Assembly (NCBI GenBank): GCA_022571715.1
Contig: JACZXH010000002.1
Coordinates: 1-64,000, forward strand
DNA from: Bacteroidota bacterium
GTDB lineage: Bacteria; Bacteroidota; Bacteroidia; Cytophagales; Cyclobacteriaceae
Direction: 5' to 3'
Length of the DNA: 64,000 nt
The translations under genes and the position numbers were made by a program. Positions 1-7,507 of the stretch are shown in pieces (position 1 is the first letter of the stretch; every line of letters begins with the position of its first letter). Below the pieces are notes generated by a model. It worked only from the letters and a program-made list of their open reading frames with translations, did no database searches and was not told the DNA's origin.

Positions 1-450
1 CCTGACGCACGGCTGCGCCCACAAGACATCGACGACCTTCCTTCCTCGATTCCGGGCAGTCAGAAGAAACGTCACCTCGTCAGCACCAGCAGAGATGTAA
101 TGCTCAACAACGACAGGTGGGTCGGTGGAAGCTGGGCCGGACTCCGACTCGACCGGGAATTCGCTCCGAAGATGCAACGAGGATCCATCCTCAGCTTTAG
201 CGATCAACGTCGTCCGATGCGATATTACAGACTCGCTCCAGTCTTGATTGCTCGAGCCAGATCGGACAAACGCTTCCAAGTAGTGCACCTTGATCGGAAG
301 ATCCAATCGAGACCCGGAAATGACGAGGAATTCACCGTCCCAGTCTAGGCGAAGGTGGTTCCCGACCATGCACCCAGACGCGACCCACACACATACGAAC
401 GTCGCTGCACCTATCAGAAAGGATATCCTGTTTCCGTTGCATTGCCCTTT
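1..450 (-). CDS. Putative lipoprotein in an integron gene cassette; partial at left edge, start codon uncertain
   Basis: Reverse-strand frame open from 450 to the window edge: ..NGNRISFLIGAATFVCVWVASGCMVGNHLRLDWDGEFLVISGSRLDLPIKVHYLEAFVRSG... with a signal peptide and lipobox-like VASGC. Not in the ORF track. No ATG in frame upstream; GTG (452-454) and ATG (440-442) with a Lys/Arg-rich leader lie in another frame, so a CTG start or a 1-nt frameshift is possible. Confidence 0.5.
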
Positions 451-467
451 TCACCTTTTATTGGTCC

Positions 468-597
468 GCCTAACGAAAGCATAACCTGCGCGAGGGATTG
501 AGAGCACTGAACTTACTGATTCAAATAACTTGCGAGAGACCACCAAACTAACCCACTCAGCCGTCGCCCTCACGTCAGGTTAATACAATGTTAGGCA
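468..597 (-). other. attC recombination site (integron cassette)
   Basis: GCCTAAC (468-474) and GTTAGGC (591-597) bound a 130-bp imperfect palindrome. Left arm gcctaacgaaagcataacctgcgcgaggg pairs with the reverse complement of ccctcacgtcaggttaatacaatgttaggc, giving matching R and L boxes. Confidence 0.8.
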
Positions 598-1332
598 TTA
601 ATTACCTTGTTCAAGCCGCTTCTTGGCAGCCTTTCTTACGTATTCAATATCGTCTCTAGCTAGCTTTTCTAGGACTGAATAATCTGTATTCGGATTCGAT
701 ACCACAAAAATTCTTATCTGAGGATAATTAGAGCGGCTTAACTTCTCTAAAATATCCGATGGAGCGTTTTTGTTTTGTGCCATAAACAAAAATATGCCAA
801 ACGTGTCCCGACCTGATTTTGCAGCCTGATTGTATAAATAACGTAGTGCATTGGCGCTTCTCGCCGTTTCTGCCACTGACAAATCATTTGTAGTTATAGA
901 TTGTTTTAATACACCAACTTCTAGCACTGCAATCACTAGTATGGGTAAAAAAATTAAATTATTTATAACCCCAGAATAACGGTGTTTCGAGTCTTTCTGC
1001 ATTCCCTTAGAGATCACTCTTATAATCAGCTTTCCGATCCCGAGAGAAACAAGTAAGATAATCAATGCGTAGAAAGGAACCACGACGAATACAAGAGCTG
1101 CTGTTGAAGAGCTTTCAAGAGCCCTTCCAAAAAGTGAATCATATAGAAAATACAGGGTTACTGTCCCAGTCAATATAGAGGCAACTAAGTAATTAATATA
1201 TTGGGACTGATCACTCCCCTTCCTCCGTTTCAGCGCGCCCCAGACGCCAAACGCAAGGGGTAATACCGACAAAGAGGCAAGTATTACCTTTGGAATAATC
1301 GCTATTAGAAATTTTAGATAGTATTCAATCAC
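598..1332 (-). CDS. Cassette-borne membrane protein with C-terminal leucine-rich-repeat-variant/HEAT-like tail
   Basis: 244 aa ORF, several TM segments, C-terminus NYPQIRIFVVSNPNTDYSVLEKLARDDIEYVRKAAKKRLE. GTG start lies 12 nt after the TTAGGC (1349-1344) core; stop abuts the attC at 597. Confidence 0.7.
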   Translation of the reverse strand: MIEYYLKFLIAIIPKVILASLSVLPLAFGVWGALKRRKGSDQSQYINYLVASILTGTVTLYFLYDSLFGRALESSSTAALVFVVVPFYALIILLVSLGIGKLIIRVISKGMQKDSKHRYSGVINNLIFLPILVIAVLEVGVLKQSITTNDLSVAETARSANALRYLYNQAAKSGRDTFGIFLFMAQNKNAPSDILEKLSRSNYPQIRIFVVSNPNTDYSVLEKLARDDIEYVRKAAKKRLEQGN

Positions 1333-1343
1333 AATACCTATAT

Positions 1344-1450
1344 GCCTAACATATTATTAAGCTTCTAATGTCTGTGTAATACGTGTAATATAAAAGAAAA
1401 AATGCAATCTGACAACTGTATAATGCTCTTTTTTCTAATATTAGTTAAAA
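1344..1450 (-). other. Possible degenerate attC/attI core upstream of the first cassette
   Basis: GCCTAAC at 1344-1350 (reverse complement of GTTAGGC). The only partner is an imperfect ctaatattagtta near 1437-1449 that does not fit the R-box consensus. Confidence 0.35.
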
Positions 1451-1500
1451 CCTGACTGCACGGACAGGAGGCTCACAGTGGGTTGACAAGCCAAGACTTT

Positions 1501-1590
1501 TTGCTAACTATATTCCCGGTCGGACGCTCCCTCCCAACCTTCACCTTTCGACTACGGTACGCATGCCGGACCGCCATGACCGTTTAGCAA
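1501..1590. repeat. 90-bp imperfect inverted repeat, attC-like but off-consensus
   Basis: ttgctaac...cccggtcggac at left versus gccggaccgccatgaccgtttagcaa at right. Confidence 0.35.
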
Positions 1591-1677
1591 GAGCATTTTC
1601 ATATATGAATTTACAAAATTTCAGAAGGCTCTGATAAATTTTATTAAATTGGGAACCGTAACCCATCAAAAACTACC

Positions 1678-2610
1678 ATGAATAGTGAAATAAAAAATCT
1701 CAGCTATGAAAATGTGATGGAAATACTAAACACGTATGACACACGGTACTCCTACGAACGGATCAAAAAGGCTCCGGACGAATCAGAAATAAAAAATGCC
1801 CTCACTAAACACCTCGATGAAACAAATTTTGGTAAAAAAGCAGTTTTAGGTATCGATATAAGAAAATATGGCGCTTTTAACGATTTCGTTCAACCGCTTA
1901 TTCCTGTTCTCTATGAGATACTTTTTGAGGAATCCATCAGGCAATGCCTGGAAACGCAGGAATTTATTTTCCAGAAATATTCACGGGAATCGATACATAA
2001 GCATACAATTAGTACTGGGGATGGCGGATTTATGATTTTTGACACCCCTTTGCATGCACTTTTATTTGCTTCAAGTTTTGCAATCACCCTAAGGCAATAT
2101 AATTCTTATCACCTCTATCCGAAATTCAGAGCTTGCATAGGCGAAATCAACTTACGGTATGCCATTACTTACGACCGTATTTACTGTATCAACAATAATT
2201 TTTTCGGTCGTTCGGTAATAAACAATAGCAGGATAATAAGCAAAGACGACCTCAACCGGTGCCTGATTGATGAAGGCAGTTACCAATGGTTCCTATTAAA
2301 TATCGATGGGCTGGAAAATCTCCAGGTACTTTCGCTAAACGAAATAGGCAATGTGGCTGCATTTCAGGATTACGACCAAACATTGATCCAAAACGGAACC
2401 AATTTGTTTTTTGAAGAAAAAGAAGACACGAGAAATTATGGCATCATTAATTCCGACATTCTTAAAATCGGAATAATACGTTCAAAAAATTTAGAACTTA
2501 ATGTATATAATATTCATCTGCAGGTTAGTGTTGTAATGCATGCCGATGATACAGACAAACGTCGCACCATAACCATAAGTTTGGGAAACCTAAATACAAC
2601 CGGAATCTAA
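1678..2610 (+). CDS. Divergent class III nucleotidyl cyclase-like protein
   Basis: 310 aa; LGIDIRKYG, STGDGGFMIF and FFGRSVINNSRIIS resemble the metal-binding Asp, GDG and N..R motifs of cyclase homology domains. Confidence 0.5.
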   Translation: MNSEIKNLSYENVMEILNTYDTRYSYERIKKAPDESEIKNALTKHLDETNFGKKAVLGIDIRKYGAFNDFVQPLIPVLYEILFEESIRQCLETQEFIFQKYSRESIHKHTISTGDGGFMIFDTPLHALLFASSFAITLRQYNSYHLYPKFRACIGEINLRYAITYDRIYCINNNFFGRSVINNSRIISKDDLNRCLIDEGSYQWFLLNIDGLENLQVLSLNEIGNVAAFQDYDQTLIQNGTNLFFEEKEDTRNYGIINSDILKIGIIRSKNLELNVYNIHLQVSVVMHADDTDKRRTITISLGNLNTTGI

Positions 2611-2874
2611 GTAAACATAAAGTTCTGCTATAATTTAATGGACGACGTCATGCAGGAGATGGAGCAAGTTGGCAGGACTCTATTTTATTTTAGTGGAAAT
2701 GATTGAATGCGGAAATGCGCAAATACTATTTATTGGTCATTTTGAATATTTCTTTCCCGGTCGCACTTCTCCATAAAAAAAAATTATTTTAGCATTTAAG
2801 CATTTTGGCACTCCATTATAAATCCATTCCTCATTAAATTCGTGGTAAAGCTATTATAAAAAATGTAACGTCAA

Positions 2875-4140
2875 ATGACACATACACGGGCAGAAATCAT
2901 TACGATCGGAGATGAAATTCTTTACGGACAAATTCTTGATACAAACTCCCAATGGATAAGCCAGCAACTGGATGAACTGGGAATTCGCGTTGTTAGAAAA
3001 GTAACGATTGGTGATAATGAAACAGATATACTTTATGCATTTGCGAGGGCACAGAAGAATGCCGACCTTGTTCTGATTACGGGAGGCCTTGGCCCTACCA
3101 ACGATGACCTTACCAAACCCCTACTGGCAAAGCATTTTGGAGTAGAGATAAAGATTAGTGAGCAGGCCCTGAAGGAGGTAACTGAATTATTCAGAAAATT
3201 TGGTAAGGAACTGACCCCTACCAACCGAACACAGGCTGAGCTACCTGTAAACTGCACCATCATATCAAATAAGCTTGGAAGCGCTCCTGGAATGTGGTTT
3301 GACGAAAATGATACCGTATTTGTATCTATGCCTGGTGTTCCGTTTGAAATGAAAGGAATGATGACCGAAATAATTCTACCCAGAATTAAGAAACGGTTTC
3401 AAACTCGTCTTATTTATCATAAAATAATTAAAACGACTGGAATCGGTGAATCCTGGCTCTCTGATAAGATTAAATCATGGGAGGAGCAACTCCCGGAACA
3501 CATCAAGCTGGCCTACCTGCCAAGTATTATGGAAGTTAAACTCCGGTTAACAGCCAGCGGATATGATAAAAACCAACTAATAGCAGATGTAGAAAAGGAA
3601 ATCGGGAAATTAAAGCCTCTTGCCGGTAAATACATTTTCGGGTACAACGACGATACCCTTGAAAAAGTGGTGGGTGAAATGCTCAGGTCGAAAGGAATAA
3701 CCATTGCCACAGCCGAAAGCTGTACGGGTGGTTTTCTTTCGCACAAATTAACAAGTGTTCCGGGAAGTTCCGACTATTTTTTGGGTGGAATTGTATCATA
3801 CAGCAACAAAATAAAAGTGACTTTTCTAGGCGTAAATGAAGAAACATTGAATAAATATGGGGCTGTAAGCGAGCAAACAGTAAATGAAATGGCCCGAAAT
3901 GTGAGAAAAATAATCGGCACAGACATAGGCGTAGCCATAAGCGGAGTGGCCGGTCCAGCAGGCGGCACTTCTGAAAATCCTGTCGGAACGGTTTGGGTGG
4001 CTGTTTCTGATAATGATCAAACCCGTGTTCTTAAATTTTCATTTGCTAAAAACCGGATGGTAAATATTGAAGCTTCGGCCAAAGTTGCTATGAATATGGT
4101 ACGTCAAAGATTAGCCGAATACGAAAAAGATACCCCGTAA
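2875..4140 (+). CDS. cinA: CinA family protein (competence/damage-inducible; NMN amidase domain)
   Basis: AEIITIGDEILYGQILDTNSQWIS N-terminus and TAESCTGGFLSHKLTSVPGSSDYFLGGIVSYSN C-terminal PncC domain. Confidence 0.95.
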   Translation: MTHTRAEIITIGDEILYGQILDTNSQWISQQLDELGIRVVRKVTIGDNETDILYAFARAQKNADLVLITGGLGPTNDDLTKPLLAKHFGVEIKISEQALKEVTELFRKFGKELTPTNRTQAELPVNCTIISNKLGSAPGMWFDENDTVFVSMPGVPFEMKGMMTEIILPRIKKRFQTRLIYHKIIKTTGIGESWLSDKIKSWEEQLPEHIKLAYLPSIMEVKLRLTASGYDKNQLIADVEKEIGKLKPLAGKYIFGYNDDTLEKVVGEMLRSKGITIATAESCTGGFLSHKLTSVPGSSDYFLGGIVSYSNKIKVTFLGVNEETLNKYGAVSEQTVNEMARNVRKIIGTDIGVAISGVAGPAGGTSENPVGTVWVAVSDNDQTRVLKFSFAKNRMVNIEASAKVAMNMVRQRLAEYEKDTP

Positions 4141-4191: not shown

Positions 4192-5526
4192 ATGGCATTA
4201 GTTGAGATGGTGATGCCCAAAATGGGCGAAAGCATAATGGAGGCCACCATTCTTACCTGGTTAAAGAAAGAAGGTGATAAAATAAACCAGGATGAATCTG
4301 TTTTGGAGGTCGCTACCGACAAGGTAGATACCGAAGTACCAGCAACACATGGCGGAATCTTAAAAGAAATACTTGCCAAGGAAGGCGATATAGTGGAAGT
4401 CGGTAAGCCGATTGCAGTGATCAGCACGGAATCTGAAACTGATGCAGACACTGAAGTGGAACTGAATGGCCAGAAAACCGATGATATTCCCGTGAAAGAA
4501 ACATCGACTGTTGAGGCATCCGCAGACATCCTGGCAGATGCACCCATTAAGCCTTCTGTTTCCGTATCAGGAAACGGTGCCGGCAAACTTGAAAAGACGG
4601 GTTCAGGCAGATTCTATTCTCCCCTGGTATTGAATATTGCCCGTCAGGAAAACATTTCTATGTCCGAACTTGTATCACTACCCGGATCGGGTAAAGAAGG
4701 AAGATTCACTAAAAAAGATATTCTTGCCTATATCAAAACACGTTCAAGCAAGTCTGCTGCTGCTCCGACACCCTCACCTACTGTGAGCACACCCGCTATT
4801 GCACCGATAGTGAGCGGGCACGACGAAATCATTGAGATGGACCGTCTGCGGCTGATGATCGCCGATCGAATGGTTGAATCCAAACGTATTTCACCGCATG
4901 TAACCTCCTTTGTTGAAGCGGATGTGACACGTATTGTGAAATGGAGAGATAAGGTCAAAACCGAATATGAACGGCGTGAAGGCGAAAAACTTACCTACAC
5001 GCCCATTTTTATCGAGGCCGTGATCAAGGCGCTTAAAGACTTCCCGATGGTGAATATTTCCGTGGATGGCTCACGTATTATCCTGCATAAAGATATTCAC
5101 ATCGGATTGGCTGTGGCGCTTCCGTCTGGTAATTTGATAGTACCGGTGATCAGAAATGCAGATCAGTTGAGCCTTATTGGGCTTTCGAAAAAGGTAAATA
5201 ACCTTGCAAAAAAAGCCAGGGAGAGCAAACTTGTACCCGATGAATTATCGGGAGGCACCTACACCATTTCCAATGTAGGCTCATTTGGTAATGTGATGGG
5301 CACACCCATTATCGTGCAACCCCAGGTTGCCATTATGGCGGTTGGCGCCATAACCAAAAAGCCGGCGGTAATCGAAACACCTGAAGGGGATTGGATAGGT
5401 ATAAGACACAAAATGTTTTTGTCGCACTCGTATGATCACCGGGTTGTAGATGGCGCACTGGGAGGAATGTTTGTTCGAAAAGTTGCAGATTACCTCGAAA
5501 ATTTCGATATTGACAGGGTTCTTTAA
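4192..5526 (+). CDS. 2-oxo acid dehydrogenase E2 component (dihydrolipoamide acyltransferase)
   Basis: Lipoyl domain (EVATDKVDTEVPA), peripheral-subunit-binding domain, catalytic domain with SYDHRVVDGALGG. Confidence 0.95.
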   Translation: MALVEMVMPKMGESIMEATILTWLKKEGDKINQDESVLEVATDKVDTEVPATHGGILKEILAKEGDIVEVGKPIAVISTESETDADTEVELNGQKTDDIPVKETSTVEASADILADAPIKPSVSVSGNGAGKLEKTGSGRFYSPLVLNIARQENISMSELVSLPGSGKEGRFTKKDILAYIKTRSSKSAAAPTPSPTVSTPAIAPIVSGHDEIIEMDRLRLMIADRMVESKRISPHVTSFVEADVTRIVKWRDKVKTEYERREGEKLTYTPIFIEAVIKALKDFPMVNISVDGSRIILHKDIHIGLAVALPSGNLIVPVIRNADQLSLIGLSKKVNNLAKKARESKLVPDELSGGTYTISNVGSFGNVMGTPIIVQPQVAIMAVGAITKKPAVIETPEGDWIGIRHKMFLSHSYDHRVVDGALGGMFVRKVADYLENFDIDRVL

Positions 5527-5641: not shown

Positions 5642-7390
5642 TTAAAACCCTGTATGCAGCTCATACGGCATCCGTGCCTGAACTCCCTGATAATTTTCTA
5701 GTTTCTTTAGAATTTCAATATACGGATAGAGCTCACCTACATTCGCCCTAATTAGTTTTGCCTTCACATCCTGACCAAAATCAGCTAGTAGCTGTTCCCA
5801 GAAAGATTTCTGTACCGGATAGTACCTTAATTTATAGTCATCTTCGATACCCGCTTTTTCTGCTGCAATACGCACCGCATCGTCAAATGTGCCAAGCATA
5901 TCCACCAAGCCATTTTCCAGCGCCTGGCTTCCTGTCCATACTCTTCCTGATGCGATTTTGCTGATTTCTTCCACGCTCATTCCCCTGCCTTCTGCTGCTT
6001 TCGTAATGAATGTTTTATATCCATTTTCGGCTTGTTTCTGAAAAATGCTTTTTTCGTAATCCGTCAGAGGTCTCGACACGGTAAAAATATCGGAATACTC
6101 ACCTGTTTTAACCACATCAGAGGTAATACCCAGCTTGTTTTCGAGAAATCCGCTTATATTGAAAAGAATGGAAAAAATACCAATTGATCCTGTAATTGTA
6201 TTGGGATAAGCGATAATGGTATCTGCAGCCATAGCCATGTAGTATCCACCAGACGCAGCATAGTTCGACATGGAAGCTATAACCGGTTTTTCCTGACTGG
6301 CAAGATATACTTCCCTCCACAGTTCATCCGAGGCGATAAAATTCCCACCTGGTGAATTGATACGTAAAACAATGGCCTTTACCCGGCTGCTTTTGCGCGC
6401 TTTCCGTATTTCTTTTGTAAATTTTTCTGAGCCAATATTGCCTTGCTCACCTTCGCCAAATACAATTTCACCGGAAGCCATAATCACGGCAATACGGTTT
6501 TTTGAGCTTGATTTCTGCTCAAATGATTTCAGGTATTTGTTTAATGTTACCAGATTTATTTTTTCATCCTCTTCAAGGCCGGAGATTTCACGAAGAATAT
6601 CTTCAATTTCGTCATAGTACCTGAGATCATCAATAAGCCCCAGATCAACAGCGTCTTCCACTTTCCTTACTAACAACCCTGAAGAAATATCATTTACTGT
6701 CTTATGATCTAATCCCCGCGACGAGGCAATGTCTTTTGTAATACGTCCATAAATATCACCTATAAAAGATGCAACCTGCACCCTGTTTTCGTCACTCATA
6801 TCTTTACGCACAAACGGTTCCACCGCACTCTTATAATCCCCTACTCTGAATATCTGAGGTTCAATATCCAGTTTTTCGAATGTGCCTTTAAAAAAACTAA
6901 GGGTATATGCCAGACCATTGAATTCAAGATCACCCTCAGGATGTAAAAAAATAGAATCGGCTACCGAGCAAATATAGTAGCTTCCTTCGCTCATTAAATC
7001 GGACCAGGCTATAATAAATTTTCCTGAGCTTTTGAAATCCTCCAACGCATTTCTAAGCTCTTCTGCATGGCCAAAACCAGCCATAATGAATTTAGTGTCA
7101 AGATAAATACCTGCTATATTTTCGTCTTCTTTTGCATGCTGTATGGCCTCCTTCAGATCGAGAATACCAATTGCAGCTGAACCCTTTATCAAAAATCCAT
7201 CAAACGGGTCTTCTATGCTGCGTTCTGCGATGGGCTTCTTTAACCGCAAATGAAGGATGGAGTTTTCGCTGATTGAAGTTTTTTTATCAGCAGACATTAT
7301 TCCTACAAGTGCAATCAAAAACAGAAAACCGAGTACTGAAAATACAAACAGCGCTACAAGCGTGGCCAGGACATTGTGTAAAAATTTCAT
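5642..7390 (-). CDS. sppA: Signal peptide peptidase SppA, 67 kDa type
   Basis: 582 aa; duplicated S49 domain; RINSPGGNFIASDELWREV and ASMSNYAASGGYYMAMAADTIIAYPNTITGSIGIF. Confidence 0.95.
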   Translation of the reverse strand: MKFLHNVLATLVALFVFSVLGFLFLIALVGIMSADKKTSISENSILHLRLKKPIAERSIEDPFDGFLIKGSAAIGILDLKEAIQHAKEDENIAGIYLDTKFIMAGFGHAEELRNALEDFKSSGKFIIAWSDLMSEGSYYICSVADSIFLHPEGDLEFNGLAYTLSFFKGTFEKLDIEPQIFRVGDYKSAVEPFVRKDMSDENRVQVASFIGDIYGRITKDIASSRGLDHKTVNDISSGLLVRKVEDAVDLGLIDDLRYYDEIEDILREISGLEEDEKINLVTLNKYLKSFEQKSSSKNRIAVIMASGEIVFGEGEQGNIGSEKFTKEIRKARKSSRVKAIVLRINSPGGNFIASDELWREVYLASQEKPVIASMSNYAASGGYYMAMAADTIIAYPNTITGSIGIFSILFNISGFLENKLGITSDVVKTGEYSDIFTVSRPLTDYEKSIFQKQAENGYKTFITKAAEGRGMSVEEISKIASGRVWTGSQALENGLVDMLGTFDDAVRIAAEKAGIEDDYKLRYYPVQKSFWEQLLADFGQDVKAKLIRANVGELYPYIEILKKLENYQGVQARMPYELHTGF

Positions 7391-7507
7391 CTAGAATTGC
7401 TAAATTTTTCCAAAAACTATGAGGCAAAAATTTTATCCTCGCCTGCAAAATTAGCGTAATTGCTTTTATTATATTCATTAAACATTTTATTTGCCACCTT
7501 ATTTCTG

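Follow-up and report, generated by a model that had tools for sequence, protein, structure and literature searches.

An integron-type cassette array without a neighbouring integrase gene in a Cyclobacteriaceae (Bacteroidota) genome: the probable attI end of a sedentary chromosomal integron

The 64,000-nucleotide stretch analysed here (the window) begins with what the original prediction had read as a CALIN-like, integrase-less array of gene cassettes, which raises the question whether this array belonged to an integron residing at this very site and, if so, what became of the integrase gene. The window corresponds to bases 1-64,000 of contig C129 (81,338 bp) in a 3.47-Mb assembly of 136 contigs and 95% completeness, which we take to be a metagenome-assembled genome; its position 1 coincides with the physical end of that contig, so that the 20 kb further left, which the original prediction wished to see scanned, do not exist. 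We hold it highly probable that positions 1-1438 represent the attI end of a sedentary chromosomal integron, whose integrase gene has been lost at the site.

The attC site and the two cassettes at the contig end

A typical gene cassette is short and carries a single, mostly promoterless open reading frame, which starts soon after the core and ends at the attC site. Cassette 1 (Table 1) has this geometry: its 244-aa gene starts with GTG 11 nt past the core GTTAGGC (1350-1344) and its stop codon ends at position 598, 1 nt short of the attC. Start codon and gene are those predicted. The attC itself separates two same-strand open reading frames, as proposed, and measures 129 bp (468-596) instead of 130 bp. 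Its R''/R' boxes are complementary (RYYYAAC...GTTRRRY) and exact (GCCTAAC at 468-474 on the plus strand, GTTAGGC at 590-596), and its L''/L' boxes pair as claimed (AACCTG-A-CGTGAGGG with CCCTCGCG-CAGGTT), leaving one extrahelical A in L'', a trait common to many genuine attCs (for example L066, AACCTGAC...GCAGGTT). Furthermore, the first bases of cassette 1, GTTAGGC, pair exactly with its own R'' box, as required of a circularised cassette. The fold of 468-596 forms the anticipated stems, a 7-bp R stem and an L stem of about 15 bp, and the bottom-strand hairpin is a predicted substrate of the integrase IntI. Compared with shuffled sequences its folding energy is only moderately better (z = -1.6 to -1.9), because about 79 of the 129 nt are loop and dilute the energy.

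Table 1. Coordinates of the features at the left end of the window
Feature	Position	Strand	Basis or remark
Cassette 2, cut off by the contig end	1..473	-	Starts with TTAGGC at 473, the attC crossover point; GC 55%
Cassette 2 open reading frame, 130 aa or more, running off the contig	1..390	-	Open reading frame list, family searches
Cassette 1 attC	468..596	-	R'' GCCTAAC (596-590), L'' AACCTGACG, L' GCAGGTT, R' GTTAGGC (474-468)
Crossover of the cassette 1 attC	between 474 and 473	-	Sequence
Cassette 1, 876 bp	474..1349	-	Begins with TTAGGC at 1349, ends with the G of its own attC at 474; boundary 1350/1349 by comparison with G001
Cassette 1 gene, 244 aa	598..1332	-	GTG start at 1332
Core GTTAGGC, putative attI-cassette 1 join, crossover G1350 / T1349	1344..1350	-	Homology edge in G001:C46
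Putative attI-side flank	1348..1438	.	86% conserved in G001 (blastn E 1.7e-23), where the intI upstream region comes next
Expected intI region, no integrase remnant	1439..1677	+	Holds the patch 1476-1526
Neighbouring chromosomal gene, 310 aa, without family match	1678..2610	+	Only the last 47 codons left in G001 here

For a score that is indifferent to loop length we used an arm-pair profile, in which the R and L pairs are scored and the loop is left free. It was trained on 27 attCs (alignment A2) out of those gathered next to true integrase genes at 80 public loci; the R/L stems of these sites are supported by covariation (85% of cells paired versus 23-46% in slid controls), although, the sites having first been chosen by an arm-complementarity scan, the profile is biased towards well-paired attCs. 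The window attC, which is not in the training set, scores 37.7 bits, within the 24-45 bits of the training sites, while the best score in 60 dinucleotide shuffles of the full 64 kb was 25.4 bits (mean maximum 19.8). A search for further attC sites, as suggested at the outset, found no second strong one either in the rest of the window or in a further 1.52 Mb of the same genome (best 26.5 bits), which counts against the integron interpretation. The attC covariance search proposed for the site was thus borne out by the profile and not by our covariance model R1, which reports no attC in the whole genome, the window site included: R1 was built from attCs with trimmed loops and does not detect loops of this length, a failure we attribute to its hit-length limit, as a trimmed 10-nt loop cannot take one of 79 nt. 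Likewise, the exact-box pattern GCCTAACN{70,100}GTTAGGC had no match in the genome because the true gap is 115. Neither a plasmid search with the window attC nor an Rfam scan of window positions 1-3000 returned anything relevant. Since window position 1 cuts the array off, just one whole attC can be seen, and the array presumably continues past this end.

Could the site be a chance attC-like palindrome (a terminator, a REP or an IS end) or the product of a misassembled contig end? Free energy alone, with z = -1.6, and a contig end just 468 bp away would allow such a reading; the exact R boxes, the L boxes with their extrahelical base, the correct gene spacing and a profile score 12 bits over the best of the 60 shuffled 64-kb sequences all speak against it, as does the independent backing of the cassette boundary by a second genome (see below), so that we give it next to no credence. 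It should nevertheless be noted, as a point against the integron interpretation, that contig ends of metagenome-assembled genomes (MAGs) can be chimeric and that the GC content of the leftmost 473 bp departs from the rest (55% in cassette 2, 39% in cassette 1, 41% in the whole window).

The products of the two cassettes offer few clues. The 244-aa protein is hydrophobic and rich in helices over its N-terminal part, and an LRV (leucine-rich repeat variant) stretch occupies C-terminal residues 204-228 (Pfam 23.1 bits, cut-off 21.6). No relative of the protein was found in 58 related genomes besides its own or in the GTDB collection, and a plasmid search was empty; the two genes were accordingly not met side by side in a relative lacking the palindrome, an arrangement that would have spoken against a cassette. 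A single-sequence AF2 model (pLDDT 49.8) was too poor for a structure search. The open reading frame of cassette 2 has no Pfam, NCBIfam or PADLOC match. A lipoprotein-like signal peptide (...NRISFLIGAATFVCVWVASGC) is encoded upstream of GTG-390, and no in-frame ATG, GTG or TTG precedes GTG-390 for it; the start of this gene is therefore uncertain.

One junction, two cassettes: comparison with a same-genus genome

A genome of the same genus (G001) contains a contig (C46, locus L020), which is syntenic with the chromosome to the right of the array at 89-90% identity. The 90 bp adjoining the array are 86% identical between the two, and the edge of homology falls exactly at the AAC of 1348-1350. 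On the minus strand the junction reads ...CTTAATAATATG|TT in both genomes, followed by AGGC... in the window and by CTACGAG... in G001. The insert at the identical G|TT point in G001 carries an unrelated 271-aa gene (L020 320-1135), whose product matches the candidate phage-defence family PDC-S11 (4.8e-17) and DUF4268-type nucleases. After this gene stands an attC-like hairpin (z = -3.5), whose R'' box GCAGAAC pairs at six of seven positions with GTTCTAC, the bases with which the insert itself begins, in line with a circularised cassette. The presence of two unrelated cassettes that share one G|TT cut point is, to judge from the two sequences, the signature of attI x attC recombination, and it points to cassette mobility with insertion at the core G|TT. 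A different cassette at the same nucleotide in G001 would place window positions 1350-1438 on the attI side of an integron. The prediction of an integrase-less, CALIN-like array is supported by these data and is sharpened in that its right boundary, 1350/1349, appears to be an attI-type point conserved in the sister genome.

Further attC-like sites were seen in G001: at L127 (C144) 4451-4508, flanked by genes for a 306-aa NAD(P)-epimerase-like and a 170-aa DinB-like protein (both named by reading the sequence); at L128 (C65) 7424-7493, adjoining a contig end; and at L131 (C9) 2955-3086, where a palindrome resembling an attC (27 bits) precedes a GTTAGGC core and a 106-aa open reading frame.

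The attI assignment draws additional support from what lies next to the conserved junction in G001. On another contig (C64) this genome carries a truncated and frameshifted IntI (TIGR02249 280 bits, over the cut-off; closest solved structure IntI4) beside a transposase-like fragment. The MAG contig L042 (Bacteroidota bacterium CSMAG_2341) encodes an IntI that is 75% identical to this relic over 185 aligned residues. The DNA just upstream of its intI matches G001 (L020 1224-1294), and not the window itself, with 80% identity over 71 bp (E 4e-10; score 70 versus a shuffle maximum of 37), directly past the attI flank; the intI upstream region therefore survives beside attI in G001. Together, conserved junction and intI upstream region support 1350-1438 as a putative attI.

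These observations also bear on the idea of off-target insertion, in which an IntI from another place would have put the cassettes into a random GTT remote from any integron. This is one of the routes proposed for the origin of CALINs (PMC8618304), and the attI recognised here is short and lacks a known consensus. That two species have unrelated cassettes at one and the same nucleotide, and that the intI upstream region adjoins it in G001, nonetheless indicates a resident attI, and the recognisable upstream region argues for a decayed integron rather than an off-target event, which we regard as very unlikely.

The search for the integrase gene

In a canonical integron, intI lies beyond attI and is divergent from the cassettes, so that here it should be found on the plus strand to the right of position 1440. 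No intI is present in window positions 1350-2875. Homology to G001 ends at 1438, other DNA occupies 1439-1677 and is followed by an intact 310-aa gene (1678-2610), which matches no family of Pfam or NCBIfam and whose only other trace in 59 related genomes is the 47-codon G001 remnant. Within the DNA that takes the place of intI, positions 1476-1526 resemble the loop of the L131 palindrome, so this stretch may hold a decayed attC in opposite orientation. In G001 the 310-aa neighbour gene is reduced to its last 47 codons next to the surviving intI upstream region; as read from this arrangement, intI seems to have been deleted there, with the deletion reaching into the neighbour gene.

The search for an intI gene, likewise suggested by the original prediction, remained without an IntI-specific match in the genome as a whole: the host genome (G000) yields 13 TIGR02249 matches, none of them over the IntI-specific insert (model positions 182-233). 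An intI gene adjoining attI and coding for this insert, as in a complete integron, is thus not present. XerA-like tyrosine recombinases were considered as the integrase of this integron and rejected, as they all lack coverage of the IntI-specific insert and lie away from the site. Such recombinases are encoded in G000 at L010 (C107) 2-673, L011 (C83) 6105-7259 and L012 (C72) 6477-6980; some are truncated with identical C-terminal parts, and some are near contig ends. Two of the XerA-like genes are divergent from a gene for a 132-133-aa cysteine-rich, zinc-ribbon-like protein, which suggests that these pairs are a multicopy mobile element. The same-orientation open reading frames of L012 6400-10900, checked as a possible array, contain no recurrent repeat.

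Among 293 sampled genomes of the order none matched the integron-integrase model at E <= 1e-60, a count that reads as 'rare' and not as 'absent', given that the search was silent in every control genome too. G001 itself does carry an integron-integrase match, and a related MAG contig (L041) encodes an intact 324-aa IntI (414 bits) and ends at a GTTAGGG core.

It could be argued that the integron is complete and active, its intI being present in the cell, acting in trans and lost from the MAG by binning or assembly. The MAG is 95% complete, arrays break assemblies, an intact IntI does occur in the related MAG L041, and the different first cassettes in two genomes of one genus imply that the site was active. 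Canonical intI adjoins attI, yet the assembled 1439-1677 holds none; the counterpart DNA in G001 is deleted into the neighbouring gene; and none of the 13 matches elsewhere in the MAG covers model positions 182-233. We therefore consider an integrase hidden from the assembly unlikely. Very unlikely, in our view, is that cassette exchange continued after the loss of intI, by means of a resident tyrosine recombinase (for example a XerA-like one) or an incoming IntI; if true, this would explain the different first cassettes in two genomes without intI at the site.

A degraded integron and its known relatives

On the interpretation favoured here, the attI end of a sedentary integron deprived of its integrase gene, IntI would have inserted circular cassettes between the G and the TT of the attI core (1350/1349) and so probably made these junctions. 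Each cassette would consist of one minus-strand gene and a terminal attC, which forms a hairpin when single-stranded; the cassette of the 244-aa membrane/LRV protein would be the latest arrival still in view, and the contig end truncates the one behind it. Transcription of the first gene would start at a promoter of its own or at one within the attI region. The deletion of intI probably followed the insertion of the cassettes. The pair of same-genus genomes represents a natural experiment, with one attI, different cassettes and a decaying intI, and the cassette pool accessible to Bacteroidota gains genes without assigned function and one candidate phage-defence nuclease.

The element is of an ordinary kind, a degraded sedentary integron (CALIN-like), which is uncommon in its host group. 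By default, IntegronFinder 2.0 defines a CALIN by at least two attC sites and no integrase (PMC9024848), and intI loss, off-target insertion or rearrangement have been proposed as origins (PMC8618304). Our locus resembles a CALIN in its attC-bearing cassettes without a neighbouring integrase, counting one complete attC and one attI/attC core before the contig ends; it differs in having kept an attI side, a feature not required of a CALIN, and in showing only one complete attC, owing to that contig end. The phylum Bacteroidota appears in the list of integron carriers. Complete integrons, elements of the same type but with intI retained, are known from the Bacteroidetes/Chlorobi group (Salinibacter ruber M1, Chlorobi, Ignavibacteriae), and the IntegronFinder 2.0 survey of 2022 reported a complete integron in one genome of Bacteroidetes proper (PMC9024848). 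Sedentary chromosomal integrons of Xanthomonas, at the ilvD locus, include lineages with intI broken or deleted (PMC12444791). Unlike these, the host here is an uncultured Bacteroidota lineage, the locus lies beside cinA, and neither of the two genomes examined retains intI at the site, with a truncated copy elsewhere in one; what both systems have in common is a fixed chromosomal attI, cassettes varying between relatives, intI decay and cassettes that persist nonetheless (PMC12444791).
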